Of a DNA stretch of 41,525 bases, positions 22,210-41,285 are shown one piece after another. The notes below the pieces were generated by a model. That model had not been told where the DNA came from. It was given only the letters and a program-made list of their open reading frames with translations, and ran no database searches. The stretch spans positions 1 to 41,525 of the forward strand of contig JAQXQE010000001.1 of NCBI GenBank assembly GCA_029101005.1. Reading direction: 5' to 3'. Position 1 is the stretch's first letter. Each line of letters starts with the position of its first letter. Both the position numbers and the translations under genes were made by a program. Origin of the DNA: Bacillota bacterium. Lineage in GTDB: Bacteria; Bacillota; Clostridia; Peptostreptococcales; Anaerovoracaceae.

Positions 22210-24511
<2,302 letters not shown>

Positions 24512-24542
24512 TAGTGTGAAAATGCTTGAAATATAAGGCTTT

Positions 24543-24580
24543 TCCGAGGATTTGGAAGATAATCCAGGTCCTCGGATTTT
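24543..24580 (+). terminator. Intrinsic terminator ending the ruvC-to-RlmD run
   Basis: TCCGAGGA (24543-24550) pairs with TCCTCGGA (24569-24576), with an inner TGGA/TCCA helix (24553-24556 with 24563-24566), followed by TTTT. It begins 32 bases after the last housekeeping stop codon and marks the left edge of the AT-rich island. Confidence 0.82.
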
Positions 24581-24617
24581 CTACGTTTTGGGAGCTGCAA
24601 AGAGGCAGAATTTTATA

Positions 24618-24670
24618 GTTGGATAGACAGAAGTATTGATTTGGGGTTGGATAGACAAAAATATTGATTT
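24618..24670 (+). repeat. Two 25-bp direct repeats, 28-bp period
   Basis: Copies at 24618-24642 and 24646-24670 share 23 of 25 bases (core GTTGGATAGACA, then TATTGATTT). They lie just beyond the housekeeping terminator and about 65 bases upstream of the methyltransferase promoter. They could be an upstream regulator site or a trace of element insertion. No coding function is seen. Confidence 0.7.
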
Positions 24671-24732
24671 TAGCTGTCCGTATTTTTGTACAGGAGTTTT
24701 GTTATATTGTTGGTTGTAGATGACCACTCAGT

Positions 24733-24769
24733 TTGACTTTAGACTAAAAATAGTTTATAATTAGTCTAA
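24733..24769 (+). promoter_or_regulatory. Promoter with overlapping operator for the methyltransferase operon
   Basis: TTGACT (-35, 24733-24738) and TATAAT (-10, 24756-24761) are 17 bases apart. A perfect 9-bp inverted repeat, TTAGACTAA (24739-24747) and TTAGTCTAA (24761-24769), occupies the spacer and the start-site region, so a bound protein would block RNA polymerase. The first gene encodes an AbrB-like DNA-binding protein, a natural candidate for autoregulation (inference). Confidence 0.8.
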
Positions 24770-24788
24770 TGAGAAAGGGGCTTAAAAT

Positions 24789-24977
24789 ATGGCTGAGACA
24801 TTAATTTATTTGGATACATACATTTTGCAACAAGATATGCGAGTTAGATTGCCCAAGTCGATTTTATCTAATATGGGTGCGGAGAAAGGAAAAACTAAAT
24901 TTGATATTTATTTTGATTCAAAGGAGAAATCCTTAATTTTCAAAATTCATGAGGAAGGAAATATGACTGATGAGTAA
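24789..24977 (+). CDS. Small AbrB/SpoVT-like DNA-binding protein, possible controller of the methyltransferases
   Basis: A 62-aa protein. The segment MRVRLPKSILSNMGAEKG, then a beta-rich FDIYFDSKEKSLIFKI tail, has the pattern of the swapped-hairpin AbrB/SpoVT DNA-binding fold (strand, IPK-like turn, helix, Gly, strands). A role as controller protein is inferred from position and the operator-like repeat. AAAGGGG precedes the ATG. Its last 8 bases overlap the start of the methyltransferase gene, so the two are coupled. It could instead be an antitoxin-like remnant. Confidence 0.65.
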   Translation: MAETLIYLDTYILQQDMRVRLPKSILSNMGAEKGKTKFDIYFDSKEKSLIFKIHEEGNMTDE

Positions 24978-26037
24978 TACACTTACAGCGGTATCGTTGT
25001 TTACTGGTGCTGGTGGTATGGATATAGGCTTTGAGAGAGCAGGGATAAAAATTGTGTTTGCAAACGAAATGATGAGTGAAGCTGCTCAAACATATAACGC
25101 TAATCATCCTGCAGGAATAATGGTTAACGATGATATATATAATCAGCTTGACACAATTGATAGATATGAAGGCACCGATTTAGTTTTTGGCGGTCCTCCA
25201 TGTCAAGGATTTTCGGTTGCCGGAAAAATGGATCCAGATGATGAAAGAAGTAAACTTATTTTCACTTTTTTAGATGTCGTTGAAAAAGTGAAACCTAAGG
25301 CTTTTGTTATGGAAAATGTTAAAGCGTTAGGTGTGTTAGAAAAGTGGGAGCCTGTTAGAAAAAAATATCTTGATAGAGCATCAAAACTTGGATACCTATG
25401 TGTACCTTTTGTTTTGAATGCTACAGAGTATGGAGTATCACAAAAGAGAGAAAGAGTTTTTTTTATAGGAATTAAAGATTGCGGTGATCCATTCTTTGAG
25501 TATCATATGAGAAATCTGTTTGATAAGCATAAAACAATAGCACCTACAATTCGAGAGCTGTTAGCATCCCTAGGCAAAGCAGGAACAGATAAGAACCCAA
25601 ATACTTGCACAGCAAAAATCACATTTGCAACGTCTCCAATTATGAGAAAATCTCCTTATTCTGGGATGTATTTTAATGGTCAAGGAAGGCCTATTAATAT
25701 AGATGGATATGCTAATACTTTACCTGCATCAATGGGGGGAAATAAGACCCCGTTTGTAGATGAAGAGTATCTTTATGGAGATGCGAAAGAGGATTGGGTT
25801 GTGGATTATCATAAAGGCCTTGTGGATGGTTCTATTGTACCTGAATTTAAAGAAGCTCCTGGACGTCTTAGAAGAATTACCATAAATGAGGCGATTAGAA
25901 TACAGACTTTTCCTGATGACTATATTTTTAAAGGAAATAAAGGAAAGATATATACACAAATAGGTAACGCTGTACCATGCAAACTTGCCGAAGCAGTAGC
26001 TAAAACGGTGATTGATTATCTGAATGAATGTCAATAA
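24970..26037 (+). CDS. DNA (cytosine-5-)-methyltransferase 1
   Basis: A 355-aa restriction-modification type C5 methyltransferase. Motif I is SLFTGAGGMDIG (9-20), motif IV GGPPCQGFS carries the catalytic Cys78, motif VI is ENV (115-117), motif VIII is QKRER (158-162), and the C-terminal motifs IX and X are RRITINEAIRIQTFPDDY and IGNAVPCKLAEAV. The target-recognition region is around 190-285. It modifies a specific site that cannot be read from sequence. AT-rich codon use differs sharply from the upstream genes. Confidence 0.95.
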   Translation: MSNTLTAVSLFTGAGGMDIGFERAGIKIVFANEMMSEAAQTYNANHPAGIMVNDDIYNQLDTIDRYEGTDLVFGGPPCQGFSVAGKMDPDDERSKLIFTFLDVVEKVKPKAFVMENVKALGVLEKWEPVRKKYLDRASKLGYLCVPFVLNATEYGVSQKRERVFFIGIKDCGDPFFEYHMRNLFDKHKTIAPTIRELLASLGKAGTDKNPNTCTAKITFATSPIMRKSPYSGMYFNGQGRPINIDGYANTLPASMGGNKTPFVDEEYLYGDAKEDWVVDYHKGLVDGSIVPEFKEAPGRLRRITINEAIRIQTFPDDYIFKGNKGKIYTQIGNAVPCKLAEAVAKTVIDYLNECQ

Positions 26038-26053
26038 GAGAGGGGGGCATTAA

Positions 26054-27061
26054 ATGATAAAATACGCCGAGTTTTGCACAGGGATTGGTGGTTTTCGACT
26101 TGGAATAGAACAATCATGTTTGGATGCAGAATTGGTATATTCAAATGAAATCAACGACAGTTGCGAAATTACATATTTGAATAATTTTGGTCGCCAATTT
26201 GATTCAAAGGATTTGTTTGACATAAAAGCTGATGAACTGCCTGATTTTGATATGATTTGTGCGGGTTTTCCTTGCCAACCATTTTCGCAAGCGGGAAAAG
26301 GTAAAGGGTTTAGCGACCCTAGAGGCACAGTGTTTTTTAAATTGATGGAGATAATTAAATGTAAAAAACCAAGTATAGTATTTTTTGAAAATGTTCCCAA
26401 TTTAAAAAGACACGATTCAGGAAATACATATAAAACAATTATCGAGCAGTTGATGGAAGATGGGTACCAACCATATGATGTCATTTTAGATAGTACATTT
26501 TTCGGAGTACCACAAAGTCGTCCTAGAATATACTTAGTAGCTTTTAGAACTGAAAAAACTGGTAAAGTAGCTTTTAGCTTTACAGAGAAATGCACAGAGA
26601 AAACTGCCTTAAGACCATTTTTAAACCTAGGAGATTATTCAATTCCAATAAGTGAAAAATGGGAAGAGTACATTGATTTATATACTAATAAAAAGACCGC
26701 ATTACAAATGAGTTTTCCTTTGCCAAAAACACGAGTAAGATTGGAACGAATAGCAAATAACTGTAATCTTGATGATTGTGTTTTTCAAATTAGATCAAGT
26801 GGTATAAGGGCGTATTCTTTAGATGAGCCGTTTCCAACATTTGCGGTTAGTAACTCGGGTGGTGGTGCTATGATTCCTGTTTTATCCAAAGAACGAAGAC
26901 ATTTGAATTTGGTAGAAATGAGAAGAATTATGGGATTCCCAGAATGGTATGACTTGAGTCATGTTTCAAGGACTGATGCAATTAAGCAATTGGCAAATGC
27001 CGTTTGTCCACCTGTAATAGAATCAATCTGTAATGATATTAAAAGAGCAATTGTAGATTAA
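26054..27061 (+). CDS. DNA (cytosine-5-)-methyltransferase 2
   Basis: A 335-aa C5 methyltransferase, not a recent duplicate of the preceding one. Motif I FCTGIGGFRLG, motif IV AGFPCQPFSQAG with catalytic Cys74, motif VI ENV (112-114), motif VIII QSRPR (154-158), motif IX near LNLVEMRRIMGFPEWY and motif X QLANAVCPPVIE are all intact. A GAGGGGGG stretch precedes the ATG, 16 bases after the first methyltransferase. Two different C5 enzymes in tandem usually mean an asymmetric recognition site with one enzyme per strand. Its stop codon lies in the loop of a bidirectional terminator. Confidence 0.95.
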   Translation: MIKYAEFCTGIGGFRLGIEQSCLDAELVYSNEINDSCEITYLNNFGRQFDSKDLFDIKADELPDFDMICAGFPCQPFSQAGKGKGFSDPRGTVFFKLMEIIKCKKPSIVFFENVPNLKRHDSGNTYKTIIEQLMEDGYQPYDVILDSTFFGVPQSRPRIYLVAFRTEKTGKVAFSFTEKCTEKTALRPFLNLGDYSIPISEKWEEYIDLYTNKKTALQMSFPLPKTRVRLERIANNCNLDDCVFQIRSSGIRAYSLDEPFPTFAVSNSGGGAMIPVLSKERRHLNLVEMRRIMGFPEWYDLSHVSRTDAIKQLANAVCPPVIESICNDIKRAIVD

Positions 27062-27076
27062 TCACAATTGCTCTTT
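27042..27076. terminator. Bidirectional terminator between the methyltransferase and nuclease operons
   Basis: A 13-bp perfect stem, AAAGAGCAATTGT (27042-27054) with ACAATTGCTCTTT (27064-27076), and a 9-base loop. The TAA stop of methyltransferase 2 (27059-27061) is in the loop, so the left arm is coding sequence. The HNH gene stop lies six bases beyond the right arm. Confidence 0.85.
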
Positions 27077-27082
27077 ATCAAT

Positions 27083-27814
27083 TTAATTCATTCTATCAGA
27101 AATGTCTTCTCCTGTTGCAAGAACAATAGAATTGTTTTCCGGGGATACAAGAGCACAAGATAGATTACACTCTTCATGACATACAAAGCACATCTGGCGT
27201 TTGCATTTATTACAATAGTGACAAAGCGCTTGATAATTATCGATTGAGCTATCCCCACCTCTATCAACAGGAATCCTGTGATCAAACTCTAATGAAACTC
27301 TATCTTTTGCAAATGTATGTGGTTGTATAGCGCTTGAATCTTTCAATAATGCACCACATATATTGCAACGATTATTTTGACGGTCAAGTATAATTCGTTT
27401 ATCAGATGCGCTAATTTGTTCTCGTACGGCTTTGGCATTAGGATTAAATAACGAATCATGATCTTCTTTACGAAGCACATATTGTCTGTTACCTTGGAGA
27501 CCTTCGGCATGAACACAAGAGAATCCTTCTTCCGTCCATAATTCACTAAATGGCTTATTAGCGTCTCCATAGCGATCTTTAATCCAAGATTCATTATATT
27601 TACCTTGGAGGATTTGTTTAATTTCTCGAAGTCGATTATTGGCTCCTACTAAATCTTCTTCTGAGCATGATTCATATTTTATGAGCAATAAGAGACCTGC
27701 AATTGTTCTTCTTTTGGTAAGCCATATAATCTTATTGTCAGGAAATACTATTTCATACCCTCTATCATAAACAACAGCTTTTCGAATCTCTATAATATCT
27801 TCAATTCTTATCAT
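27083..27814 (-). CDS. HNH endonuclease, probable restriction enzyme
   Basis: A 243-aa protein with a C-terminal HNH (beta-beta-alpha-metal) nuclease: paired zinc cysteines (Cys150/Cys153 and Cys198/Cys201), the catalytic DHRIPVDRGG (Asp178-His179) and Asn193 in SSIDNYQALC. Extra cysteines near 209-216 may form a second zinc site. The N-terminal half (about 1-125) has no recognised domain and may provide DNA specificity. Start: the ATG at 27814 has AGGAG seven bases upstream; a GTG two codons earlier is too close to it. It is the last gene of the minus-strand operon, convergent with two methyltransferases, hence the restriction call. Confidence 0.82.
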   Translation of the reverse strand: MIRIEDIIEIRKAVVYDRGYEIVFPDNKIIWLTKRRTIAGLLLLIKYESCSEEDLVGANNRLREIKQILQGKYNESWIKDRYGDANKPFSELWTEEGFSCVHAEGLQGNRQYVLRKEDHDSLFNPNAKAVREQISASDKRIILDRQNNRCNICGALLKDSSAIQPHTFAKDRVSLEFDHRIPVDRGGDSSIDNYQALCHYCNKCKRQMCFVCHEECNLSCALVSPENNSIVLATGEDISDRMN

Positions 27815-27826
27815 TAGCACACTCCT

Positions 27827-28927
27827 TTATTTACTGTGTAATTTCAACCATAATTTTTTGACAGTTTCAGCAGTATTGATATCTGAAATGTAGGCATTCA
27901 AATCTTCATAGAAAGATGAACGAGCGTCAAAAGTCATTCTTTGTAATGTATCACAAACCCATTCATAGATATTCCAATAGTAGTAAATGATATCTTGGTA
28001 CTCATAACTTCCCATGTATAAATGAGTTGAACTCTTCTTCATTTCATCTGGGCAATCCTCTGGTCTACAGATAACAACAATTTCGTGAAGGTCAGCATTT
28101 GAGTTTTGGTTATATGTATTAACACAGTCATACGAGTCACGAATTCTTGCCAGATCAAAAGGCTTAACTGTTATCTCGTATACTTTATAAATGTTTCCAT
28201 CAACAGATTCCTCATTTACATCGCCTGGTTTTTTGCTAGTAGTACTAGTAACAGAAGCTCTGTCCTTTTCGCCAGTTACGACAATTCCAGTATTCATTGC
28301 AGAATGATAGTTTTTTAGCAAGAAAGCTGCTATTTTTTGAGGTGTATTACCAGCATCTGGTGCTTTAACTATTAATTCGCGGGATATCATATAAAGCCAT
28401 TCAGGGTCTGAGGATGGTTCTATTTCTACATTAAGTTCTTCTACACGTTGAGATTCTGCTATTAGTCTTCTTAAAAGCGAAATGCCAATCATATCTACAA
28501 AATCTGGTATTTGGCTATTTTCAAGAAGGTTAACGATATCAACCACTTTAAGAGCAACATCTTGGGGTCTACGTTGAGCTGCCCATGCATTGTCTAGTCC
28601 CTTTGCGGCTTTAGCAATATTTAATGGACCGGATTTTCTGTGAGGAATATTATTCTCAATTAAAAACTCTTTGATTGGTCCTTCGTATATAGCTCGTGGA
28701 TTACAATCATATAATCCTGTAGAAGCTTTGTATGATTCATCCATTTTCATTCCCACAACTACAACAAGTATGATTTCACGAAATCCCCAAGCATCTGTGG
28801 TAAAGAGTTTGTCCATAGAAGTTTTATACGAAGTTTCATCTACTGTGTAAGTAGTATCTTTTGCTTTTGCTATTAGGCTATTCAAAATATTTGAAACATT
28901 TTGATTCCTTTCATCAACTTTTCCCAT
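27827..28927 (-). CDS. Putative PD-(D/E)XK-type restriction endonuclease or subunit
   Basis: A 366-aa protein without a firm family assignment. Around residues 230-260 a KPGDV segment, then a strand ending YEITVKPF, resembles the D...E-x-K core of PD-(D/E)XK nucleases, although E and K are spaced by three residues rather than one. The N-terminal half has conserved-looking RAIYEGPIKEFL and AWAAQRRPQDVA stretches reminiscent of some type II restriction enzymes. AGGAGG precedes the ATG, which overlaps the glycosylase gene by 14 bases. It lies 13 bases before the HNH gene. It may be the main nuclease, with HNH as partner, or the reverse. Confidence 0.5.
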   Translation of the reverse strand: MGKVDERNQNVSNILNSLIAKAKDTTYTVDETSYKTSMDKLFTTDAWGFREIILVVVVGMKMDESYKASTGLYDCNPRAIYEGPIKEFLIENNIPHRKSGPLNIAKAAKGLDNAWAAQRRPQDVALKVVDIVNLLENSQIPDFVDMIGISLLRRLIAESQRVEELNVEIEPSSDPEWLYMISRELIVKAPDAGNTPQKIAAFLLKNYHSAMNTGIVVTGEKDRASVTSTTSKKPGDVNEESVDGNIYKVYEITVKPFDLARIRDSYDCVNTYNQNSNADLHEIVVICRPEDCPDEMKKSSTHLYMGSYEYQDIIYYYWNIYEWVCDTLQRMTFDARSSFYEDLNAYISDINTAETVKKLWLKLHSK

Positions 28928-29585
28928 TTTTTTCCTCCTGTTTATGTAAATGAAATACTTTCTTTGTTAAACCCATATCCAATGCACGATACAAATACCG
29001 GGCAGCGATGGATGAGTATGGTTTCCACTTTTTACATCTTTTGGTGATAGATTCTCTTGACCTATCTTTCGTTTTGTATATCCATTCATATGATTGTAGA
29101 AATGCGACATCTTCATAGGGAAGTATGTCCTGCCTATCCAATACGAATATCAGATACATTTTTGCTGTCCAACTTCCAATTCCTCGTAAGGATAACAGTT
29201 TTTTATACACTTCTTCGTCATCGAGGTGTTCAAAAGTTTCTAAATTGAGTTCTCCAGATATTACTTTGTCGGTTAGAGAACGAATAAAAGAAACTTTGGA
29301 AGAAGAAGTGCCAATACTTTTTATTTGTTCATTGGTCAACTGAGCAATTTTTTCAGGAAGAACTTCTCCATTGCACAAATCTTTTAGTCGACCGTAAATC
29401 TTTGCTCCGGCTTTAACAGAGAGCATTTGTTCTATGATCTCATGAACTAAAAAAGCATACGGGTCCTTGGATTCTACTTCATAAGTGATGGGCCCGACCA
29501 TTTTAATGACTTTTGCTAGGCGTTTATCTTTCTTGCATAAGTGCTGTATGGCTGGAGATGTTTCGTCTAATACTATTGTCGACAT
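28914..29585 (-). CDS. AlkA-like HhH-GPD DNA glycosylase
   Basis: A 223-aa base-excision enzyme of the DNA-3-methyladenine glycosylase II type. The helix-hairpin-helix is LLSLRGIGSWTAKMYLIFVL (about 130-149) and the catalytic aspartate is Asp159 in ILPYEDVAF. The C-terminus lacks the four-cysteine Fe-S cluster of EndoIII/MutY/MIG enzymes. AGGAGG lies four to five bases before the ATG. Its place inside a restriction-modification operon, overlapping the putative nuclease gene by 14 bases, suggests it serves that system rather than general repair (inference). Confidence 0.85.
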   Translation of the reverse strand: MSTIVLDETSPAIQHLCKKDKRLAKVIKMVGPITYEVESKDPYAFLVHEIIEQMLSVKAGAKIYGRLKDLCNGEVLPEKIAQLTNEQIKSIGTSSSKVSFIRSLTDKVISGELNLETFEHLDDEEVYKKLLSLRGIGSWTAKMYLIFVLDRQDILPYEDVAFLQSYEWIYKTKDRSRESITKRCKKWKPYSSIAARYLYRALDMGLTKKVFHLHKQEEKNGKS

Positions 29586-29593
29586 AGAACCTC

Positions 29594-30058
29594 CTATTTT
29601 AGTTCCGGGTTAGGAGTATTGAGATTTCGATTAAAATATAATTCTGTTACTCCATTGCCTTCAAAAATCTCTAGCATCATATCTAAATGCCATAGGGTTT
29701 CCTTTGCTTTTAACTCTTCAAGTGGCATCCAGAATATTTCTCCCTCTGATGAGGATTGTATACTGCCAGAATATGTGTTGGTTTTATACAAGAAAACCAT
29801 ATAGCGAGAACCATCAAATTCTATCCAGTCCTTAATGCCACAGAACTGAAGATTGCTTATAGTGAGTCCCGTTTCTTCTTGGATTTCTCGTATCATTGAA
29901 TCAACCACGGATTCATTGCTTTCTACATGACCACCATGTAAAATTAATCCTTTTGAGTTGTGTACAAGCTTTTCTTCGACAAGCACATTTCCTTGGTCAT
30001 CATAAATCATACACATATTCGTGAGTTCGACTGGGGTTTTACGATTCATTCGCTCCAC
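29594..30058 (-). CDS. Nudix hydrolase
   Basis: A 154-aa Nudix protein with an intact box matching GX5EX7REUXEEXGU at residues 43-65 (Gly43, Glu49, Arg57-Glu58, Glu61-Glu62, Gly64). Length and layout resemble MutT/8-oxo-dGTP diphosphatase-like enzymes, but the substrate cannot be set. Translation may start at the GTG at 30058, whose AAGGA lies five bases upstream, or at the ATG at 30049. It follows the XRE gene by one base and precedes the glycosylase gene by eight, a tight nucleotide-pool and base-excision pair. Confidence 0.85.
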   Translation of the reverse strand: MERMNRKTPVELTNMCMIYDDQGNVLVEEKLVHNSKGLILHGGHVESNESVVDSMIREIQEETGLTISNLQFCGIKDWIEFDGSRYMVFLYKTNTYSGSIQSSSEGEIFWMPLEELKAKETLWHLDMMLEIFEGNGVTELYFNRNLNTPNPELK

Positions 30059-30059
30059 C

Positions 30060-30263
30060 TCAATCCTTTATTGTTTCCATGATGTCTTCCAACTTACAAT
30101 CCATAGCCTCACAGATTTTGAGAAGAACATCAGTTGTGATGTTTGCACCCTTGCCGAGTTTGGCAATGGAAGCTGCACTGATTCCGGCAGCCTCCTTAAG
30201 GTCGTTTCTATTCATTTCTTTGTCTATTAACATTTTCCATAATTTGTTGTAACTGATTCGCAT
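30060..30263 (-). CDS. XRE-family (HTH_26-type) transcriptional regulator
   Basis: A 67-aa Cro/CI-type helix-turn-helix protein. LKEAAGISAASIAKLGKG is the helix-turn-helix and TTDVLLKICEAMDCKLEDI is the typical family tail. The start at 30263 is preceded by AAGGAGG (30270-30276) with a six-base spacer; a longer open frame upstream has no such signal. It sits 16 bases after the helicase gene in the middle of the minus-strand operon and is a candidate regulator of the downstream nuclease genes (inference). Confidence 0.85.
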   Translation of the reverse strand: MRISYNKLWKMLIDKEMNRNDLKEAAGISAASIAKLGKGANITTDVLLKICEAMDCKLEDIMETIKD

Positions 30264-30279
30264 AATCAACCTCCTTGCT

Positions 30280-33078
30280 TTACAACCAAAAATCACATGA
30301 TTCTTCTTGCTGTTTTTCTGTGAGATAGTTTTTCAAGAGTTCGACATCTTTACTGATATCTCGTGGTCTGATTCGGTTAATAACCTTTTCCTCGACTTCA
30401 GGTGTCCAGTAGATTTTCAATTTTTCCCTGGCTCTTGTGATAGCGGTGTAGAAGATATTGTGTGTTACAAGTTCCTCAACTTCATCTGTAATAACTATCT
30501 TTACAGAGTCATATTCGAGACCTTGTGCTTTGTGTATTGATACAGCATAAGCAATTTGGAATGGTACAACAGTGAAGGAGGTACTTTCATCTCCATCTTC
30601 GTCAGCACTCTTTAATTTGTGTACACAAAATCTAACTAACGATTTTCCTTCGCTTTCCCAACATTCAAGTAGTTCGAGGTTAATACGCCGGAGATCACTT
30701 TCATCTACTATCTTAGGTATCTCAACATCAAACTGAATGCGTTCTTCATGAGTGTCTGGGTCTAAGATTTCAATTCCCTTTATAATTCCCTTCATATTAT
30801 TGTGTATGACAGGGAAAAACCTATCCGAATCAAGGAAGAGAATCGGGTCTCCAACTTTATACTGTTGAATGTCCCATTGAACTGCAGGGTTAGGATTACT
30901 TTCCTGTAAGAATCGGTTGATGTTGTTGATTCCGTATAAGCCGTCATAATTCAGACAAAGGATAGCCTCTCCTGGTTCAAGAGAAGAGAGTAAGGATTCA
31001 TCTACTTTTAAGGAGTAGCTTTCTCTTTCGATGACTTCTTTTGCGGTATCATCCATCTGTCTGACCTTATCCCATAGTTCAAGTAATCGTTCATCCTTGG
31101 TTCGATGAGGCTGGGTAAGTTCAAATACAGCACTTTCCGGTAAAAATGCTTTTAATACCGAGAACCAATTTCCAAATTGAATGGCGTCAATTTGATAAGT
31201 GTCTCCAACCAATAAAAGCATTTCAAAATTTGCCTTTTGAAGAACCTCAACCATATCTTTATTGCTGACGGTACTACACTCATCAATAACCAATAATTTA
31301 TACTTAGCAAAAGCAGACCCTTGGCGTTTGAAACTTTCAATTGTTGAGAAAGTTGTATTTTCTGCATCAATCTTTCGCATCAGGTTCTCTTTTGCTGGAT
31401 TTGTTTGTGTAAGGTATAGTTTGGAATCATCATTTAAGTAGTGAGAAACATGGTTTATTAGCGTAGATTTTCCTACACCTGCTGAACCGTATATCACACC
31501 AACCTTTGATTCCGAAAATATACGGGTGATGATGTCTTTCTTTTCATCGCAGTCAATTTCGTAATCATCGAACATCAGCCAAATTTCAACATCGGCACTG
31601 TAGTTCTCAATACCTGATTCTGCCAACTCTTGTAATTTTTCAATTACAGTGCAAGTATCGAGTTTGTAATCGTTTATAAATACTTGATTATGTTCAAGCA
31701 TTAAATCACTTTCAGGTCTGTGCCCTGAATAAAGACTGTCGTTATACTGTTCGATGAGTCTTGGGTAATCAGGAAAATTACCTAGTTCATCAACATCAGT
31801 AAAGAGTTGTCCTCTACCTTCAGTGTTGTTCCTTATAAATCTTGCGAACAATTCCGGGCGTTTGTCTTTACACGGAATACAATCAAAAACAGCACCTAAT
31901 TTTGGATTATGGCCAACAGGAGATCTGTTAAATGGTAAAGAGTCAAACTGCCTGCAACCGTTTGATAAGTACAAATTAGAAAGATAACTGTTTCCGGTAT
32001 GTATCCATTCTTCATAGTATTTGCTATAGTATCCGTCTGAATATTGGCCTTTAATAATAACATTGTTCATGTTATAGAGAAGGTATCGCAGCACATTCTT
32101 TCCATTACGACCATTTCGGATAAGTTCTCTGCAGTAATCTAAAATAGGAATAAATACCATAGATTTAAGGCTATTTTTCCATTCAAGAGTAAGCCTATCA
32201 TATGCTTTATCCGGGAAGTCCATTAGAGCAGTCAAAGTGTATTTTGTTCTGGTAAGGAACTCACAGATTAAGCGTTGCTCTGGATATGGTACTCTTTTTT
32301 TCTCTCCTTTTATCAGTTTAATAAAATTTTGAAATTCACAGTCACGAATGGAGACCTCCCAGCCGTCAATAATGATGATAGGCATTGTTTTTCCTAATAT
32401 CTCAATAGTTTCATGTACAAGATGAAACTTCGATGCATAATTGCTTTTGATTGGAAGTTTAGTAAAAGCAATTACTCTGTTAGATTTGGATTTGTTTTTT
32501 CTGTCATCTATAGGTGTAAATGTGATTTCATAATATATTTTTCTGTCTACAAACAGCTGTTTGATTTTCTGAATATAGTATTTATCTTTGCTGTCACTGT
32601 GAAATGCCACGGGATATCGTTCTATTTTTTCAGAAATCTTTTTATAGTATTCCTGTAATGTATCATCTAAATGAAGAGGAAACTTATCTATGTTATGTAA
32701 TACCTCTATACCAAAGTAGTGCCAGATAAGATTTTTTGCTTCTAGCAGGTATTGGTAATACTTAAGCATTAATCGTTCAGAACCGTCTTCATCCAAAGTA
32801 TATTGTGTGGTGACTACTTCCAGGTAATTATGGAATTTATATAGAGTGTACAATTCACTGTTTATCTGTGCAAACTCGGTGGCCTTTTCTATGTTTTCGG
32901 CGGTTATAGGTATGTCCCTGCCGTTGGCATAGAACTTGAGCATGATGTGATTTACGAACTTTGTCAGCTGCTCTAAAATGTCTTGAGAAATAGCACCACG
33001 AGAATTGTTTTCTATTTCATCTAAATGCCTACAGATTACACTATCTATCTTCTTGATAGACTCATCGATTGTTGGCAT
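30280..33078 (-). CDS. RecD-like SF1B helicase with a large uncharacterised N-terminal region
   Basis: A 932-aa protein. The C-terminal 400 residues are an SF1 RecD/TraA-type helicase: Walker A GSAGVGKST (about 531-539), Walker B VIDEC (about 597-601), motif III GDTYQ (about 625-629), QPHR (about 656-659), then AYAVSIHKAQGLEYD and NIFYTAITRARE near the end. The first ~525 residues match no domain I know; a patch at 375-430 (GCRQFDSLPFNRSPVGHNP, NNTEGRGQLFTD) looks conserved. Start chosen at 33078 because GGAGG is seven bases upstream; an ATG at 33084 is too close to it. It is 21 bases after the 458-aa gene. A role in DNA processing or phage defence is inferred. Confidence 0.82.
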   Translation of the reverse strand: MPTIDESIKKIDSVICRHLDEIENNSRGAISQDILEQLTKFVNHIMLKFYANGRDIPITAENIEKATEFAQINSELYTLYKFHNYLEVVTTQYTLDEDGSERLMLKYYQYLLEAKNLIWHYFGIEVLHNIDKFPLHLDDTLQEYYKKISEKIERYPVAFHSDSKDKYYIQKIKQLFVDRKIYYEITFTPIDDRKNKSKSNRVIAFTKLPIKSNYASKFHLVHETIEILGKTMPIIIIDGWEVSIRDCEFQNFIKLIKGEKKRVPYPEQRLICEFLTRTKYTLTALMDFPDKAYDRLTLEWKNSLKSMVFIPILDYCRELIRNGRNGKNVLRYLLYNMNNVIIKGQYSDGYYSKYYEEWIHTGNSYLSNLYLSNGCRQFDSLPFNRSPVGHNPKLGAVFDCIPCKDKRPELFARFIRNNTEGRGQLFTDVDELGNFPDYPRLIEQYNDSLYSGHRPESDLMLEHNQVFINDYKLDTCTVIEKLQELAESGIENYSADVEIWLMFDDYEIDCDEKKDIITRIFSESKVGVIYGSAGVGKSTLINHVSHYLNDDSKLYLTQTNPAKENLMRKIDAENTTFSTIESFKRQGSAFAKYKLLVIDECSTVSNKDMVEVLQKANFEMLLLVGDTYQIDAIQFGNWFSVLKAFLPESAVFELTQPHRTKDERLLELWDKVRQMDDTAKEVIERESYSLKVDESLLSSLEPGEAILCLNYDGLYGINNINRFLQESNPNPAVQWDIQQYKVGDPILFLDSDRFFPVIHNNMKGIIKGIEILDPDTHEERIQFDVEIPKIVDESDLRRINLELLECWESEGKSLVRFCVHKLKSADEDGDESTSFTVVPFQIAYAVSIHKAQGLEYDSVKIVITDEVEELVTHNIFYTAITRAREKLKIYWTPEVEEKVINRIRPRDISKDVELLKNYLTEKQQEESCDFWL

Positions 33079-33099
33079 CAACATTCCTCCTTTCGGTTA

Positions 33100-34476
33100 T
33101 TAATATTCTCCATCATCCCAATCATCAATAAATGCATCATACGGGAATGCTCCTGCAAATTGGTCTGGATGAAGCTTTACATACAAATTGCGTATTTTGG
33201 TTCTGGCATTTCCTAAAGAAGGAGTGACAGAGCCATCGACTAAAAGGCTGTTACTTATATTGTTTAATTCGCCAAGTAAACCAAAAACATGCGACTTTAA
33301 AGATGGATCAGCAAATGTATCTGCTTTTGAAATCCACTTATTTTCATACAAGTCTTTTATTTTACAAGGCAGAGTCATGTCGATTAATGATTCAGCATAG
33401 TTTTCTCCGATGAGAACAACCATAATTTCATCATAATCTGTTGTGAACTCTTGCAGCAGTAAATTGTCTGTCGGAGAGTATGGAGATTCTTCTGTGGGAT
33501 GCTTACTTGGAATCTCGAGGGCTTTTGTATCTGTATTATCTTCGGGGATTGGATATAAACGCACATAAATATCCTTCATTTCAGTTCGCTTTTTAATGGT
33601 CTCTGGTCGAAGGACATCTCGGAGCTGATTGCCTTCTTCAATGGATTCATTCCTAAACCAAAGAATATCAGTATCAGGAATCCATCGTAAAAACTTATCT
33701 GAAATATAGTAGGTGTAATCTCCAAGTACCTGCATTGCATCAACTACAAGCTTTCTTAAACAGGCATCTTGAATTTTTCGCACATCATATTTCCATGATT
33801 GAAGAAAATCATTAATCTCGTCAGCGAGTGATAACTTTGTTCCTTCTCCTGTAGGGTCATGATCCATACAATATGTGAGAAGAGGTTCAACCTGGCTTTT
33901 GAATCGTTCAAGAAAGGCAGAGTCTGTTGGACTTAGTCTATTCACGTCAAGTGTGTCGGTCGAAGTAGCAGGGCTGACTAAATTTGAGATAGCGTTACCC
34001 CATACATCCACAATAGCCTGTCCTGAAGCCAAGACTTTCTCGGTAAGAATATCATGCGGTGTTTTATCACTTTCTTTTTTAGCACTCTTCGGAGTGCTTT
34101 TTCTTTTTTGTGCAGCAGCCGTTGTAAGAATCTCTTCAAACAAATATGCGATTTTCTCTGATGCGTTGTACAGGCTTATATCTTCTATATGAGTTTGAAA
34201 AGCATCGCACAACCTTTGCGTTGTTGCTTCTGGAAAATTATCTAAATACGAAATGAACTGTTCCGGCTCAATGTGTGGTAAAACACGCTTTGCTATATTT
34301 GTAATTTTAGTTTTGCCATTGTAATAGGCCTTAAAAGTGTTTTTGCTTATATCTTCAATTTGTAATAAGCCCTCTTCGGTGATGATTGATTCAAACAGTG
34401 TTCTGGTAAAGACATGAGTGCTGTATGAACCACCGATGATGGGTTTTATTTTTTGTGCAAATTCTGTGAATTCCAT
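33100..34476 (-). CDS. Unknown protein, first gene of the defence-like operon
   Basis: I do not recognise this 458-aa protein. The N-terminal ~120 residues look like a small helical module (ISKNTFKAYYNGKTKITNIA, then EPEQFISYLDNFPE). A Lys-rich low-complexity stretch (about 124-136, KRKSTPKSAKKES) links it to a mixed alpha/beta body. The C-terminus is acidic (DAFIDDWDDGEY). No signal peptide or membrane segment is seen. GAGG precedes the ATG. Its gene lies directly before the RecD-like helicase gene, so the two products probably work together, perhaps as sensor or adaptor and helicase. Function is unassigned. Confidence 0.75.
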   Translation of the reverse strand: MEFTEFAQKIKPIIGGSYSTHVFTRTLFESIITEEGLLQIEDISKNTFKAYYNGKTKITNIAKRVLPHIEPEQFISYLDNFPEATTQRLCDAFQTHIEDISLYNASEKIAYLFEEILTTAAAQKRKSTPKSAKKESDKTPHDILTEKVLASGQAIVDVWGNAISNLVSPATSTDTLDVNRLSPTDSAFLERFKSQVEPLLTYCMDHDPTGEGTKLSLADEINDFLQSWKYDVRKIQDACLRKLVVDAMQVLGDYTYYISDKFLRWIPDTDILWFRNESIEEGNQLRDVLRPETIKKRTEMKDIYVRLYPIPEDNTDTKALEIPSKHPTEESPYSPTDNLLLQEFTTDYDEIMVVLIGENYAESLIDMTLPCKIKDLYENKWISKADTFADPSLKSHVFGLLGELNNISNSLLVDGSVTPSLGNARTKIRNLYVKLHPDQFAGAFPYDAFIDDWDDGEY

Positions 34477-34506
34477 AATCCACCTCTTTCTTCATTACAC
34501 CCAAGA

Positions 34507-34541
34507 CTACCGAAGCCTACCAGCCACTACCAAGTTCTACC
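34507..34541 (-). repeat. Four CTACC/GGTAG direct repeats at exact 10-bp period
   Basis: CTACC occurs at 34507-34511, 34517-34521, 34527-34531 and 34537-34541 (GGTAG on the transcribed minus strand). The 10-bp spacing places each copy on the same face of the helix. They lie between the operon's promoter (34631-34659) and the first start codon (34476), so they could be a multi-copy operator or an element in the 5' untranslated RNA. Confidence 0.75.
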
Positions 34542-34630
34542 GATCCAGTTATCTATAATGAGAAGTGTAAAAAGCAAACAGCGAGTGCTTGCTACTTGTA
34601 AGGCTGTATTGGGGAATTGTTCTACCAAAT

Positions 34631-34659
34631 ATTATATCAGAAAAGAACGCAAAAATCTA
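34631..34659 (-). promoter_or_regulatory. Extended -10 promoter for the seven-gene minus-strand operon
   Basis: On the minus strand TGATATAAT (34631-34639) is an extended -10 with a perfect TATAAT. A weak -35 (TAGATT, 34654-34659) lies 17 bases upstream. The predicted leader to the ATG at 34476 is roughly 145 bases and contains the GGTAG repeats. Confidence 0.65.
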
Positions 34660-34730
34660 CACTTTCACAGTTTGTTAATATGCGTTCGCAGAGAAAATTT
34701 ACAAATGCAGCTATTTTACCTCTCTGACCT

Positions 34731-34761
34731 TTAGTTGAGTTCATTAGGTGGATTCAACTAA
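34731..34761. repeat. Inverted repeat in the divergent region
   Basis: TTAGTTGA (34731-34738) and TCAACTAA (34754-34761) are perfect 8-bp arms with a 15-base centre. They lie between the defence-like operon's promoter and the phage leader, a position suited to a phage repressor operator. No bound protein can be named. Confidence 0.5.
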
Positions 34762-34943
34762 GTGCCAGAGGCACTTAAAAAATAATATCACAAGGCCTGA
34801 TTAGCTATAAGGGCATTGGGATACAGATATCGACATCAACCACAGGACAACCTGTGGAAGGTGTGATAGAGGTACCCTTATTTCCTTATGCCCTTTTTCA
34901 GGCTTCACGGGTCGGTACTTCTATAAGCACCGGCCTTTATTTG
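34760..34943 (+). ncRNA. Structured leader RNA upstream of the phage early genes
   Basis: This stretch lacks a gene but is rich in potential helices: AAGTGCC/GGCACTT (34760-34766 with 34770-34776); a long-range AAGGGCAT/ATGCCCTT pairing (34809-34816 with 34888-34895) followed by a T run; CCACAGG/CCTGTGG (34840-34846 with 34851-34857) nested inside it; and GGTCGGT/ACCGGCC (34910-34916 with 34929-34935, one G-U pair) followed by TTTATTTG. The last two outer hairpins look like terminators, so it may be an attenuating leader or a small RNA. No clear promoter was found. Confidence 0.5.
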
Positions 34944-34989
34944 TTCCCGTTGCCCTTCTGCAAGAACCAGGCAGAAAGGCAGGAACTTT

Positions 34990-35505
34990 ATGAAAATCAA
35001 GATTCGTTATGAGAACGAGTATCAGACCCTTGAGGTCGAAAACGTGGAATTGGAGAGATGGCTTAATATCTCCATTTCAGAAGATGAGAGTCAGGAAGAC
35101 TACGAAAAGAGAATCCAGGATGTAATCGAAGAGAGATTTAACAGACCCGATTACAACAGCTGGCATAAGCATGACCGTCATACTGGCAATGCTTATATGA
35201 AGAGCAAGGACGGAACAGTTGAGGTCAACACCGAAGAAGCAATCATGTACAGAGCAGCTGATAAGTCAGCCTTTGACAGTTCCATTGATGGAGTACATAA
35301 CCAGCTTGAATATGAAGAGTGCTGTGAAACTTTGAGAAGTCTTCTTAAACCTGCAGTGGCAGATATGGTTATTGCCATTGCCCTTGATGGATACACCGTT
35401 GGCGAGTATGCAGCATCAATCGGCGAGAATGCCAATAATGTCAGTCATCGTTACAGACGTGCAATCAACAAATTAAAAAAAGTTTTTTCAAAAACGTCCT
35501 TTTAA
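34990..35505 (+). CDS. Phage sigma-70-like/HTH regulator
   Basis: A 171-aa protein of the kind that begins replication modules of clostridial prophages. The C-terminal 60 residues resemble sigma region 4: LRSLLKPAVADMVIAIALDG, then a helix-turn-helix GYTVGEYAASIGENANNVSHRY and a basic tail. The N-terminal part (about 1-105) is charged and unassigned. AGGA lies five bases before the ATG. The 3' end contains an A7-G-T6-C-A5 run (35475-35494). It probably directs transcription of the phage genes downstream (inference). Confidence 0.7.
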   Translation: MKIKIRYENEYQTLEVENVELERWLNISISEDESQEDYEKRIQDVIEERFNRPDYNSWHKHDRHTGNAYMKSKDGTVEVNTEEAIMYRAADKSAFDSSIDGVHNQLEYEECCETLRSLLKPAVADMVIAIALDGYTVGEYAASIGENANNVSHRYRRAINKLKKVFSKTSF

Positions 35506-35572
35506 CCCTTCTCCCAAGGCTATCAGGTAGGAGGGTGACACCTCCAATAAATTATTTAAGGAGGTAATTCGT

Positions 35573-36340
35573 ATGGAATTACAAGTATTTAACAGCACAG
35601 AGTTTGGCTCTGTAAGAACAGCAACTGTAAATGGTGAGGTTATGTTTGTCGGCAAGGATGTAGCAGACATTCTCGGGTACCAGAACGGTAGTCGAGATAT
35701 CAACCGCCATGTAGATGAAGAGGACAGACACAAGGTCATGATCTTTGATGGTAACCAAGATAAGGAAACCATCATCATCAATGAGTCTGGACTTTACAGT
35801 CTTATCCTTTCAAGCAAGATGCCGAATGCAAAGAAGTTCAAACATTGGGTTACATCAGAAGTTCTTCCGGCTATCCGTAAGTATGGAATGTATGCCATCG
35901 ATGAGATTCTCAATAATCCTGATCTTGCGATTGCAGCACTCACACAGCTTAAGGAAGAGCGTGAGAGAAGAAAGCAGCTTGAATGTATCGCATTGGTTCA
36001 GCGTCAGCAGATCGCAGAACTCCAGCCAAAGGCAAGCTACTATGACCTTATTTTACAGAACAAGAACACAGTTCCTATTACGCAGATTGCAAAGGACTAC
36101 GGTATGAGCGGTCGCAAGTTCAATGAACTTCTTCACGAACTTGGGGTTCAGTACAAGTTCAGAAAGACCTGGCTTTTATATCAGCACTATGCAGAGTGCG
36201 GATACACACAGTCCCGTACCTACGCAATCGATGAGAGCAGAAGTGTGATGCATACCTACTGGACTCAGAAGGGCAGACTTTTCCTTTATGACCTTTTGAA
36301 GAATGAAGGCATCTTGCCAGTTATCGAACAGGAGGGTTAA
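35573..36340 (+). CDS. Phage antirepressor with BRO-N and KilA-C domains
   Basis: A 255-aa protein. Residues 1-105 are a BRO-N domain (FGSVRTATVNGEVMFVGKDV, AKKFKHWVTSEVLPAIRKYG). A linker with a helical EERERRKQLE segment follows, and residues 135-250 are a KilA-C/ANT-type domain (KASYYDLILQNKNTVPITQI, YGMSGRKFNELLHELGVQY). Such proteins counter phage repressors. A strong AAGGAGGT precedes the ATG; a second GGAGG in a small hairpin (35530-35545) sits upstream and may affect initiation. Confidence 0.92.
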   Translation: MELQVFNSTEFGSVRTATVNGEVMFVGKDVADILGYQNGSRDINRHVDEEDRHKVMIFDGNQDKETIIINESGLYSLILSSKMPNAKKFKHWVTSEVLPAIRKYGMYAIDEILNNPDLAIAALTQLKEERERRKQLECIALVQRQQIAELQPKASYYDLILQNKNTVPITQIAKDYGMSGRKFNELLHELGVQYKFRKTWLLYQHYAECGYTQSRTYAIDESRSVMHTYWTQKGRLFLYDLLKNEGILPVIEQEG

Positions 36341-36345
36341 GAGAT

Positions 36346-36786
36346 ATGGGTGTTGATAAGTTTAATCACGAAGGGTACTTTGACCCGACCACATATGAGG
36401 CACTTACCAACATCCACCGTGAGGAAATGGCAGCTGATAAAAAGGCTGCCTATCTTCCTTTGGTGTATGTGTGCAGTCCATATGCTGGTGATGTTGAAAC
36501 CAATGTAAAGAATGCAAAACGATACAGCAGATTCGCTGTTGATGAAAATGCTATCCCGGTAACACCGCATCTTTTATATCCGCAGTTCATGGATGACGGT
36601 AATGAGGCTGAAAGAGAGATGGCTATGCATTTCAATTATGTACTTCTTGGCAAATGCACAGAGGTCTGGGTTTTCGGTGGTGTGATTAGCCGAGGTATGG
36701 CTCGTGAGATTGGTATTGCCAAGAAAAGAAGAATGAAGATCAGATGGTTTACCCAGGATTTGAAGGAGGTCGGAGAATATGATTAA
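36346..36786 (+). CDS. Phage DUF7768/DUF4406-like protein (nucleoside 2-deoxyribosyltransferase fold)
   Basis: A 146-aa protein. VYVCSPYAGDVETNVKNA, then TPHLLYPQFMDDG and VWVFGGVISRGMAREIGIAK, is the usual pattern of small phage proteins with a deoxyribosyltransferase-like Rossmann fold. The catalytic role in phages is not established. It lies six bases after the antirepressor gene and overlaps the primase-helicase gene by eight bases. Confidence 0.82.
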   Translation: MGVDKFNHEGYFDPTTYEALTNIHREEMAADKKAAYLPLVYVCSPYAGDVETNVKNAKRYSRFAVDENAIPVTPHLLYPQFMDDGNEAEREMAMHFNYVLLGKCTEVWVFGGVISRGMAREIGIAKKRRMKIRWFTQDLKEVGEYD

Positions 36787-39034
36787 TTTTACTGTTTATT
36801 CAGCAGACTGTGTCGGCAACAGCGGTAACTGTCTGTATCCCAATAAGAATGTTGTAACGGATAAAGAGTCCTTTATCGCAGCAACCAAGATGGATCATGT
36901 CACTGCAAAGTATAAAGGAAACTATCGCAGTAAGGATAACTTTGAATCCTCCGACTGTATTCCACTTGACTGTGACAATGACCATTCAGAGAACCCGGAA
37001 GACTGGCTTACTCCTTTTGACATTGCACTTTCAATTCCGGGAGTTGTTTTTGCTGCATCGTACAGCAGACACCACAACCTTCCAAAGGGTGACAAATCGG
37101 CAAGACCGAGATTTCATGTGTTCTTCCCTATACCAAAGGTAACTGATGGAGAAGAGTACGCAGCCATGAAACGAAAGATTGCTGATGCGTTCCCTTATTA
37201 CGATACCAACGCATTAGACTCTGCAAGGTTCCTTTATGGCAATGACTCTGATGAAGTGGAGTTCTATGAAGGTGACAAGACCATTCTTGATTATCTGGAA
37301 GAGGACGATTTTGCTGTCTTCGATGCAAGCCTTGAGCAGGTGCCGGAAGGTCAGCGTAACAGTACCATGAGCCACATTGCCGGAAAGATTATCAAGAGAT
37401 ACGGAAATACAGAAGAGGCGTATCAGATCTTCCTTAAGAAGGCAGAACTCTGTAATCCACCACTTCCTGAAAGTGAACTCAAAGTGATATGGAGAAGTGC
37501 ATCAAAGTTCGGTAACAAGGTATCGAACCAGGAAGGATACATTCCACCTGAACAGTACAACTCTGACTGCAGATTAAAGCCGGAAGACTTCTCCGATGTG
37601 GGACAGGCTACGGTTCTTGCAACTGAGTATAAGGATATCCTTCGCTATTCTCCATCGACTGATTACATGGTCTACAACGGCAGTTTCTGGGAAGAGTCAA
37701 AACCAAAGTCCCAGGGTGTTTCCCAGGACTTGACGGAAAGACAGCTTGCAGAGGCTGAAACCGAAATGAAGAAGGCTATGGATGAACTTGTAAAGAATGG
37801 CGGTATGGAGATTCTTGTATCCGTGGGTCCGAAGAAAGCCGTGCAGATGTTCAACAAGCAGCAGACTCATGCCTATGAGATGTATGAAGATGCTGTGGCT
37901 TATAAGAAATATGCCATTAAGCGAAGAGATACAAAGAACATTGCTGCCACATTAAAAGAGGCTCGTCCGATGCTTGAAGTGGAACAGAGAAACCTTGATG
38001 CCGATGAGTTCATGTTGAACACACCGACTCTTACCTATGATTTAAGACAGGGCACCAAGTTTCCGATGGAACACAGACCAGAGCATTTCATCACAAAGCA
38101 GACAACCGTTGACCCATCAAATGATGGAGCAGATATCTGGGCGGCTGCACTTGACACCTTCTTTTTAAAGGATACCGACCTTATTGATTATGTTCAGAGA
38201 ATGGTTGGTCTTTCAGCAATCGGCAAGGTGTATGTGGAAGCACTCATTATCGCATATGGAGAAGGCCGCAATGGTAAGTCAACCTTCTGGAATGTTATCG
38301 CAAGAGTCCTTGGTACATATTCAGGAAACATTTCTGCGGATATGCTGACCGTTGGATGCAGAAGAAATGTCAAGCCGGAACTTGCCGAGGCAAAGGGTAA
38401 GAGAATGCTTATTGCAGCAGAACTGGAAGAAGGTATGAGATTGAATACTGCCAATGTTAAACAGCTTTGTTCTACCGATGAAATCTACGCTGAGAAGAAG
38501 TATAAAGATCCGTTCTCATATACTCCGACACATACACTTGTGCTTTATACCAACCATCTGCCAAAGGTCGGTGCGATTGATAAAGGTACCTGGAGAAGAC
38601 TTATCGTTATTCCGTTTGATGCCAAGATTGAAGGCAGTGCTGATATCAAGAACTACGCAGACTATCTGTTTGAAAAGGCAGGCGGAGCAATCCTTACATG
38701 GGTAATCGAAGGTGCAAGAAAGGTGATCGCAGACAACTACAAGATCGACCCGCCACAGAAGGTGCGTGATGCCATTGAGCATTATAAGGAGAGTAATGAC
38801 TGGCTTTCCTACTTCTTAAGTGAACGCTGCGAACTTGACCCTGCCTATGTAACAAAGTCGAGCGAGGTATATAACGAGTATCGAATCTTCTGTACCCAGG
38901 TGGGTGAGTTTACAAGAAGTACAACGGATTTCTACACAGCCTTGGAAACGGTCGGATTTGAAAGATACCGTGACCGTAAAGGCAGATACATTAAAGGCTT
39001 AAGACTCAAGACGGACTTTATGGAAGAAGAGTAA
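36779..39034 (+). CDS. Phage primase-helicase (AEP primase, D5/P4-type SF3 helicase)
   Basis: A 751-aa replication protein. The N-terminus is an archaeo-eukaryotic-type primase with acidic catalytic residues in PLDCDND (Asp64, Asp66, Asp68) and RFHVFFP; a primase C-terminal-like region follows (about 190-245). The second half is a D5_N domain and SF3 helicase with Walker A GEGRNGKST (494-502) and a later VLYTNHLPKVGAIDKGTWRRL segment. It probably primes and unwinds the element's origin. GGAGG-like sequence precedes the ATG within the overlapping upstream gene. Confidence 0.93.
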   Translation: MINFTVYSADCVGNSGNCLYPNKNVVTDKESFIAATKMDHVTAKYKGNYRSKDNFESSDCIPLDCDNDHSENPEDWLTPFDIALSIPGVVFAASYSRHHNLPKGDKSARPRFHVFFPIPKVTDGEEYAAMKRKIADAFPYYDTNALDSARFLYGNDSDEVEFYEGDKTILDYLEEDDFAVFDASLEQVPEGQRNSTMSHIAGKIIKRYGNTEEAYQIFLKKAELCNPPLPESELKVIWRSASKFGNKVSNQEGYIPPEQYNSDCRLKPEDFSDVGQATVLATEYKDILRYSPSTDYMVYNGSFWEESKPKSQGVSQDLTERQLAEAETEMKKAMDELVKNGGMEILVSVGPKKAVQMFNKQQTHAYEMYEDAVAYKKYAIKRRDTKNIAATLKEARPMLEVEQRNLDADEFMLNTPTLTYDLRQGTKFPMEHRPEHFITKQTTVDPSNDGADIWAAALDTFFLKDTDLIDYVQRMVGLSAIGKVYVEALIIAYGEGRNGKSTFWNVIARVLGTYSGNISADMLTVGCRRNVKPELAEAKGKRMLIAAELEEGMRLNTANVKQLCSTDEIYAEKKYKDPFSYTPTHTLVLYTNHLPKVGAIDKGTWRRLIVIPFDAKIEGSADIKNYADYLFEKAGGAILTWVIEGARKVIADNYKIDPPQKVRDAIEHYKESNDWLSYFLSERCELDPAYVTKSSEVYNEYRIFCTQVGEFTRSTTDFYTALETVGFERYRDRKGRYIKGLRLKTDFMEEE

Positions 39035-39145
39035 TGACAGTAGGTGTGACAGTTAATGACGGCTATTTACTATCCTTTTCTATAGAGTAAAAAAATTAAG
39101 TCTATATATAAAGTATAGGAAATGACAGTCTTACCCTGTCACACC
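39035..39145. other. Repeat-rich gap, candidate replication origin
   Basis: TGACAG occurs at 39035, 39047 and 39123, with a variant TGACGG at 39057 and an inverted copy at 39136. A perfect 10-bp inverted repeat, GGTGTGACAG (39043-39052) and CTGTCACACC (39136-39145), encloses an AT-rich stretch (about 39061-39120). Repeats flanking an AT-rich centre directly after the primase-helicase gene suggest an origin. Alternatives are an operator or a transcript hairpin. Confidence 0.5.
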
Positions 39146-39176
39146 ATCAAATTCAGCATTGATGGAGGTGGCACGA

Positions 39177-39458
39177 ATGCGTGAAAAAGAAGTAGAGCAG
39201 AAACTTGTAAAGGCTGTAAAGCTTGCAGGTGGTTTCTGTATTAAATTTACATCTCCCGGATTTGACGGAGTGCCGGACAGACTGGTTCTTCTTCCAAAAG
39301 GGAGAATGGCTTTTATAGAACTCAAGGCTCCTGGCAAGAAACCAAGAGCCTTACAGAAAAGAAGAATGAAACAGTTATCAGCTTTGGGGTTTCCCTGCTA
39401 TGTGGTTGATAACATTGATGTGATTGGGGGTGTCATTGATGAAATACAATCCTCATGA
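39177..39458 (+). CDS. VRR-NUC domain nuclease
   Basis: A 93-aa stand-alone VRR-NUC protein of the PD-(D/E)XK superfamily, commonly encoded beside phage SNF2 helicases. The core GVPDRLVLLPKGRMAFIELK supplies the Asp and the E-x-K residues, followed by ALQKRRMKQLSALGF. The frame is open from a TTG at 39159, but the ATG at 39177 has GGAGG eight bases upstream. Its last 20 bases overlap the helicase gene. Probably a structure-specific nuclease used in phage replication or recombination. Confidence 0.9.
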   Translation: MREKEVEQKLVKAVKLAGGFCIKFTSPGFDGVPDRLVLLPKGRMAFIELKAPGKKPRALQKRRMKQLSALGFPCYVVDNIDVIGGVIDEIQSS

Positions 39459-41212: not shown

Positions 41213-41230
41213 TTCACCCCGAGTTCATCT
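41191..41230 (+). repeat. Tandem 10-bp repeats AGTTCACCCC upstream of the late promoter
   Basis: Copies at 41191-41200, 41201-41210 (last base T) and 41211-41220 are head to tail, with a partial copy after one extra base at 41222-41230. The first two are coding, and the stop codon of the regulator gene (41210-41212) falls at the junction with the third. They end about 20 bases before the extended -10 at 41250, the expected place for an activator. Confidence 0.88.
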
Positions 41231-41249
41231 ATAAGTCGCATAAGGGATG

Positions 41250-41258: not shown

Positions 41259-41285
41259 TATAATAGCAAAATAGAATGAGTTACA

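Follow-up and report, generated by a model that had tools for sequence, protein, structure and literature searches.

The restriction endonuclease EcoT38I cuts a palindrome. The thymine glycosylase Mig.Mth has the HhH-GPD fold and is encoded by a repair gene tied to C5 methylation; like Vsr, it is a case of a repair gene encoded with C5 cytosine methyltransferases (MTases). Base excision in a restriction-modification (R-M) setting is also a trait of the R.PabI-family restriction glycosylases (PMC10273834), and temperate phages with a variable site holding R-M and other defence genes appear in another study (PMC9122126). Elements of these kinds come together in an island at positions 24733-34659 of a 41,525-nucleotide stretch of DNA from a Bacillota bacterium (here called the window), which ends with its contig at 41525. 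We consider it likely that the island belongs to a phage, probably a prophage, as an exchangeable cassette that includes two R-M systems, a separate module of a helicase and a protein with an LmuA-type N-terminal domain, and a glycosylase that may be protective. The parts are of known kinds; their recurring arrangement and the glycosylase group have not been described, as far as our literature searches go. The features are as follows.

24517-24543, no strand: stretch downstream of rlmD near the likely attachment end (attL side), in a flank common to loci L070 and L073
24733-24761, plus strand: promoter-like site of the MTase operon (11 of 12 positions matched in a promoter scan)
24789-24977, plus strand: AbrB-like small protein of 62 amino acids, putative controller of the MTase operon, with homologs that adjoin M1 homologs
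24970-26037, plus strand: M1, C5 cytosine MTase (Pfam DNA_methylase, 1.2e-67), partner of the nuclease at 27827-28927 (P5)
26054-27061, plus strand: M2, second C5 MTase (Pfam, 2.8e-69), partner of the HNH nuclease
27042-27076, both strands: bidirectional hairpin at the convergent junction, from folding against shuffles
27083-27820, minus strand: HNH type II restriction endonuclease (PADLOC REase_II PDLC03431 over its full length, 1.8e-96; Pfam HNH, 3.2e-9)
27827-28927, minus strand: P5 (366 amino acids), type II restriction endonuclease of EcoT38I fold by predicted fold match
28914-29585, minus strand: AlkA-like HhH-GPD DNA glycosylase (Pfam HhH-GPD, 4.7e-12)
29594-30058, minus strand: Nudix hydrolase (Pfam NUDIX, 4.7e-15; Nudix box)
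30060-30296, minus strand: small XRE/Cro-type regulator (Pfam HTH_26, 3.5e-19)
30280-33084, minus strand: SF1 (RecD/Dda-like) helicase, PADLOC candidate PDC-S53 (PDLC05035, 1218 bits)
33100-34476, minus strand: Unk (458 amino acids), helical protein with an LmuA-type N-terminal domain (PADLOC LmuA match), partner of the helicase
34508-34541, minus strand: four GGTA(G) boxes at a 10-nt pitch, putative operator in the leader of the minus-strand operon, kept upstream of Unk in relatives
34631-34639, minus strand: extended -10 element of the minus-strand operon, TGATATAAT, from leader alignment
34990-41212, plus strand: phage genes (sigma-like, Bro-N, small deoxyribosyltransferase-like, primase/helicase, VRR-Nuc, SNF2 helicase) with homologs in phage NatCom_6392 and in viral contigs

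The island differs from the EcoT38I system in also encoding a second R-M unit, a small controller and an AlkA-like protein; P5 and EcoT38I are 12% identical. Its glycosylase, unlike Vsr and Mig.Mth, is of AlkA type with a P-x-[ED]-D motif and has relatives also beside N6-type MTases. In the R.PabI family the glycosylase itself is the restriction enzyme, whereas here a separate HhH-GPD protein stands beside nucleases; the terms HhH and AlkA are absent from that paper (PMC10273834). The phages are different from those in PMC9122126, NatCom_6392 being filed under Ca. Heliusvirales.

In the proposed mechanism the defence cassette, exchangeable between phages, would adjoin the phage attachment end. 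In the DNA of both host and prophage, M1 and M2 would each methylate cytosine at a site of its own; P5 would cleave unmethylated M1 sites (predicted to be GRGCYC or the subset GAGCTC) and the HNH enzyme unmethylated M2 sites; with P5 and HNH each policing its own site, incoming phages would meet two restriction systems. Unk and the helicase, which have a leader of their own, may act against phages as a distinct module. The XRE and AbrB-like proteins would probably time the expression of restriction and modification, and the glycosylase would most likely shield the DNA of host and prophage against base damage that the MTases cause.

The island consists of ten open reading frames (ORFs), three on the plus strand (the 62-residue protein and the two C5 MTases) and seven on the minus strand, with neighbours spaced by -17 to 21 bases. 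An earlier note, made from the sequence of this DNA, had described two convergent units, the minus-strand one tightly packed, that meet at a single bidirectional hairpin, and both points were borne out: the hairpin has folding energies of -16.8 (plus) and -17.7 (minus) kcal/mol and none of 200 shuffles was as stable on either strand, although a terminator scan did not pick it up. The note also gave each unit its own promoter. In the minus-strand operon the extended -10 element is conserved; for the plus-strand site the scan alone is weak evidence, because the region holds 26 promoter-like sites, fewer than the shuffle mean of 40.9. Pfam families were found for seven island proteins (DNA_methylase twice, HNH, HhH-GPD, NUDIX, HTH_26 and an SF1 helicase core), and none above the cut-off for the 62-residue protein, P5 and Unk. 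The G+C content is 46.4% upstream, 36.1% in the island and 42.9% in the phage part. The view of the locus as a defence composite, in which base-excision and helicase genes are added to an R-M core, stands, as does the note's remark that it knew of no described system with this gene set: no model in PADLOC unites all ten proteins, and no such set was found in the literature searched.

Evidence for an exchangeable cassette comes from related loci compared with the window, which carry L-numbers as labels. Upstream of the island lie genes that we take, from their sequences, to be tgt and rlmD, and downstream lie the phage genes, some named after annotated phages and the others named presumptively. 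That the island adjoins phage genes, and that near-identical phage backbones hold other cargo there, was missing from the earlier note. The flank downstream of rlmD is nearly identical in the viral contigs L070 and L073, where it stands beside different cassettes; in congeners, of which 38 of the 46 others matched, similarity to the rlmD region stops within that gene. The window and L070 are 91.5% identical over 24470-24705, 91.9% over 29595-33489 (helicase and Nudix) and 94.2% over 33992-41525, and at an E value of 1e-8 they have nothing in common over 24706-29594; in the non-shared part L070 carries a different nuclease-slot gene and a different C5 MTase. Variable defence cargo at one place, the mark of a phage defence hotspot in related phages, was thus seen at the rlmD flank (window against L070 and L073) and by gene map in L010, L072, L075 and L114. 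Lamassu-like genes replace Unk and the helicase in L004, L008, L040 and L050, PDC-S06 occupies their place in L042, and the cargo of phage phi1605 includes, by annotation, a type IIs enzyme gene and an adenine methylase gene. Near-identical phage backbones carry different cargo at one site. Among the relatives the XRE, AlkA and AbrB-like genes are often (not always) kept, whereas nucleases, MTases and the upstream module vary.

In the favoured reading the island is carried by a phage, which is probably integrated as a prophage. Two results count against this: no further copy of the attachment stretch 24517-24543 turned up in the genome when up to three mismatches were allowed, and the right end was not located; terminase and portal of NatCom_6392 were not found in the genome, although a missing match to the proteins of one phage proves little. 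For these reasons an intact prophage is not established.

The glycosylase is, by its sequence, an AlkA-like HhH-GPD protein. It has the HhH-GPD domain, and the catalytic Asp is present in all 22 readable close relatives. The family profile matched the PDB entries 2h56 (1.1e-60) and 2yg8 (3e-46), and the closest relatives of solved structure are catalogued as 3-methyladenine glycosylases. Among 32 relatives listed, 24 were at least 44% identical and eight more distant. All 22 readable close relatives have P-x-[ED]-D, in which the residue preceding the catalytic Asp is altered; in the distant ones a G precedes the Asp (five of five readable), as it does in 2h56 and 2yg8. In the 24 close loci, nine of which came via P5 queries, the gene next in line belongs to the P5 or SacI family in 15, is an ORF of no identified family in five and is neither in four. 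A scan with AlkA gave 19 loci, of which the 13 at 53% identity or more were analysed: nine have a C5 MTase, three (L084, L086 and L088) an N6- or N6/N4-type MTase, and one ends first.

We tentatively favour the reading that the glycosylase guards the DNA of host and prophage against base lesions due to the co-encoded MTases, because a C5 MTase is present in nine of the 13 AlkA-scan loci, a Vsr-like protein is encoded in L085, and a glycosylase of OGG type follows M1 in other loci. The OGG-type gene (OGG_N plus HhH-GPD) lies immediately 3' of the M1 homolog in L042 (7821-8648), L043, L050 (12210-13034), L080 (11762-12574) and L081, three of these being near-identical. Several observations speak against this role. 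N6- or N6/N4-type MTases stand in three of the 13 loci, and one plasmid relative adjoins an N6 MTase; no AlkA match was found in 17 proteobacterial P5 loci, nor in five of 13 other P5 loci; the AlkA gene sits in the restriction rather than the modification operon; and the adjacency of P5 and AlkA is partly by construction, because the loci were partly collected through P5. Repair of deaminated 5-methylcytosine was ruled out as the general role, because relatives adjoin N6-type MTases.

Further observations concern the repair genes. A C-terminal piece of an OGG-type glycosylase was seen at the end of the NatCom record, and in L081 a DDE transposase gene (11867-13282) is inserted between P5 and the OGG-type gene. 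The Vsr-like protein of L085 (5688-6131) shares its AlkA locus with two C5 MTases.

Alternatively, the AlkA-like protein could itself be a defence enzyme that excises modified bases from restriction-resistant phage DNA, leaving abasic sites. The identified restriction enzymes next to it in 15 of the 24 close loci (in part by construction), its occurrence with both C5 and N6 MTases, the altered residue before the catalytic Asp and the Nudix neighbour in some loci would fit, but the filing of the nearest solved relatives as 3-methyladenine glycosylases, and the Vsr and OGG-type repair genes in relatives' loci, make this a less likely role. The wider proposal, that the P-x-[ED]-D enzymes are a new class of defence glycosylases excising modified bases of phages, that Nudix may clear modified nucleotides and that such cassettes are traded as units, is to be regarded as doubtful; if true, the cassette would close the base-modification loophole left by restriction enzymes that cut unmodified DNA. 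It is likewise rather improbable that the repair genes (AlkA, Nudix and OGG-type) are passengers, functionally unconnected with restriction. One plasmid relative adjoins an alkyltransferase gene and many P5 loci do without AlkA; against this, AlkA recurs at its position in the cassette as other cargo varies, and its motif is particular to the group. Whether it acts in protection or defence, the recurring glycosylase, with its altered active site and its restriction-gene neighbours, offers a testable lead on the handling of DNA damage or of base-modified phages.

The pairing of P5 with M1 recurs. P5 faces an M1 homolog in all 13 loci from Firmicutes, Spirochaete and Coriobacteria (L038-L050, several near-duplicates), and in 16 of 17 proteobacterial loci (L051-L067) it adjoins a related C5 MTase, the exception, L065, starting at a contig end. 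The two genes are thus adjacent and co-inherited, as in type II R-M systems; one locus that departs from this is L009, in which they are about 14 kb apart. By our own reading, the interval in L009 (contig IMGVR_UViG_2868698139_000002) holds AbiTii-like and type I restriction-like ORFs. The P5 family has no Pfam, PADLOC or NCBIfam model, and sequence searches of the PDB gave no relevant match (the sole row was an esterase, E 0.66). The predicted fold of P5 matched EcoT38I over the length of P5 with a score of 24.6, the next unrelated row scoring 7.8, and the active-site residues of a restriction nuclease are conserved. On this modelled structure P5 appears to be a type II restriction endonuclease that shares the fold of EcoT38I, which supports the putative PD-(D/E)XK nuclease of the earlier note and gives a model-less family a predicted site as well as a fold and a partner.

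The predicted M1/P5 site is GRGCYC or its subset GAGCTC. SacI-family enzymes stand beside M1-like MTases in L078 and L050 (PF09566) and in L079, L080 and L082 (assigned via 64-91% identity), and the target regions of these MTases are 78-80% identical to that of the window's M1. A tree places the SacI-linked MTases among the P5-linked ones, with poorly supported deep branches; a profile comparison of P5 with SacI was not significant. GRGCYC ranks sixth of 96 degenerate palindromes by avoidance in NatCom_6392, fourth of 95 in phage TPDSL_ph1 and first of 96 in parts of L008, L038 and L042, compared with 57th of 96 in host DNA. Two facts run counter to the prediction: phi1605 has no GRGCYC depletion (rank 61 of 96), and avoidance of palindromes is general in these phages. 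Fold match, SacI-family partner swap and phage avoidance of GRGCYC agree with P5 being an isoschizomer of EcoT38I, without proving the same site.

M2 and HNH look like a unit inserted into the convergent junction of the M1-P5 unit, because the pair stands convergent in L109, with an M2 homolog (72% identity, cut by the contig end) and an HNH homolog (71%). L109 is the sole relative found in viral contigs, and no plasmid match was obtained. The dependence of the pairing on this single outside locus weakens the case, as does the match of the HNH model to only the window's own genome among 398.

The presence of two MTases and two nucleases had led the earlier note to think of one system for an asymmetric site, of BbvCI or Bpu10I type, with one C5 MTase per strand and two nuclease subunits. 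TPDSL_ph1 (L010), too, has two C5 MTases opposite two nuclease-slot genes. However, no HNH homolog was seen in the 13 loci in which P5 faces M1, M2 and HNH stand as their own pair in L109, and P5 matches EcoT38I over its length while HNH comes from another nuclease family. The nucleases are inherited in separate pairs, not as subunits with both MTases, and a single asymmetric-site system is very improbable.

The helicase matches the PDC-S53 model over residues 3-924 of 934 and has a Walker A motif (GSAGVGKS) and DECS; the name PDC-S53 was not found in the literature searched. Unk matches LmuA of PADLOC (4.8e-17) across residues 1-139. Lamassu has an SMC-type ATPase where the island has an SF1 helicase, and there was no PADLOC match to LmuB among the ten proteins; only the N-terminal part of LmuA is common to both, and in relatives LmuA/LmuB-like genes or PDC-S06 hold the place of Unk and the helicase. 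The structural model of Unk was poor, and no nuclease motif was seen by reading its sequence. Nine loci were found, one of which (L076) was dropped for a weak match of 50 residues. The order Unk, helicase, XRE is kept in the other eight (L068-L075), with the helicase ORF split in two in L074 and L075, and also in the phages TPDSL_ph1 and phi1605; a Nudix gene likewise follows XRE in L070, L072 and L073, and the XRE gene also occurs in Lamassu-like loci such as L004, L008, L040 and L050.

The leader of this module is conserved as well. In eight of the 12 Unk-helicase loci whose leaders were aligned, the extended -10 element TGATATAAT is identical in six and one base off in L069 and L075. The four GGTA(G) boxes were found upstream of Unk in 11 of the 12 loci (window, L010, L068-L075 and L114), with no match before Lamassu-like operons and none in five mononucleotide shuffles; two further matches, placed elsewhere, are in L073 and its duplicate L077. 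The array is kept in phages whose hosts differ, and it resembles an operator. Less favourable to such a module are L082, an Unk-helicase locus without the array, and helicase homologs (43-57% identity) that stand without Unk, XRE or AlkA as neighbours in four other genomes of 398. Helicase relatives were also found on eight plasmid records, and in the three inspected no adjoining XRE is annotated.

The idea of one new defence machine made up of all seven minus-strand genes was rejected as highly unlikely in spite of their tight packing and one conserved leader, since the sub-blocks recur separately: the helicase pair accompanies other cargo, whether or not Nudix and AlkA are present, and P5-M1 is found with Lamassu-like genes replacing the helicase. 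On the refuting test set in the earlier note, conservation of the seven-gene order extends to the sub-blocks and not to the whole.

The 62-residue protein is AbrB-like by our own reading of its sequence, and its homologs (57-76% identity) adjoin the M1 homolog in ten of the 13 P5 loci L038-L050. Related small proteins, ASCH-like by the same kind of reading, are encoded in L010 (13485-13949) and L109 (5516-5983), one beside the AbrB-like gene and the other between XRE and HNH. Unk contains an additional segment (alignment columns about 240-450; window 33100-34476, L068 8609-9988) that is missing in most relatives and resembles the C-terminal domain of Unk and that of L084. The first gene of the Lamassu-like operon in L084 and L089 encodes a C-terminal tail, NQYGD...HVENL, which we presume to resemble motifs of other conflict proteins. 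Between the conserved -10 element and the first gene of the minus-strand operon, a terminator-like hairpin on the minus strand (34575-34598) could be an attenuator.

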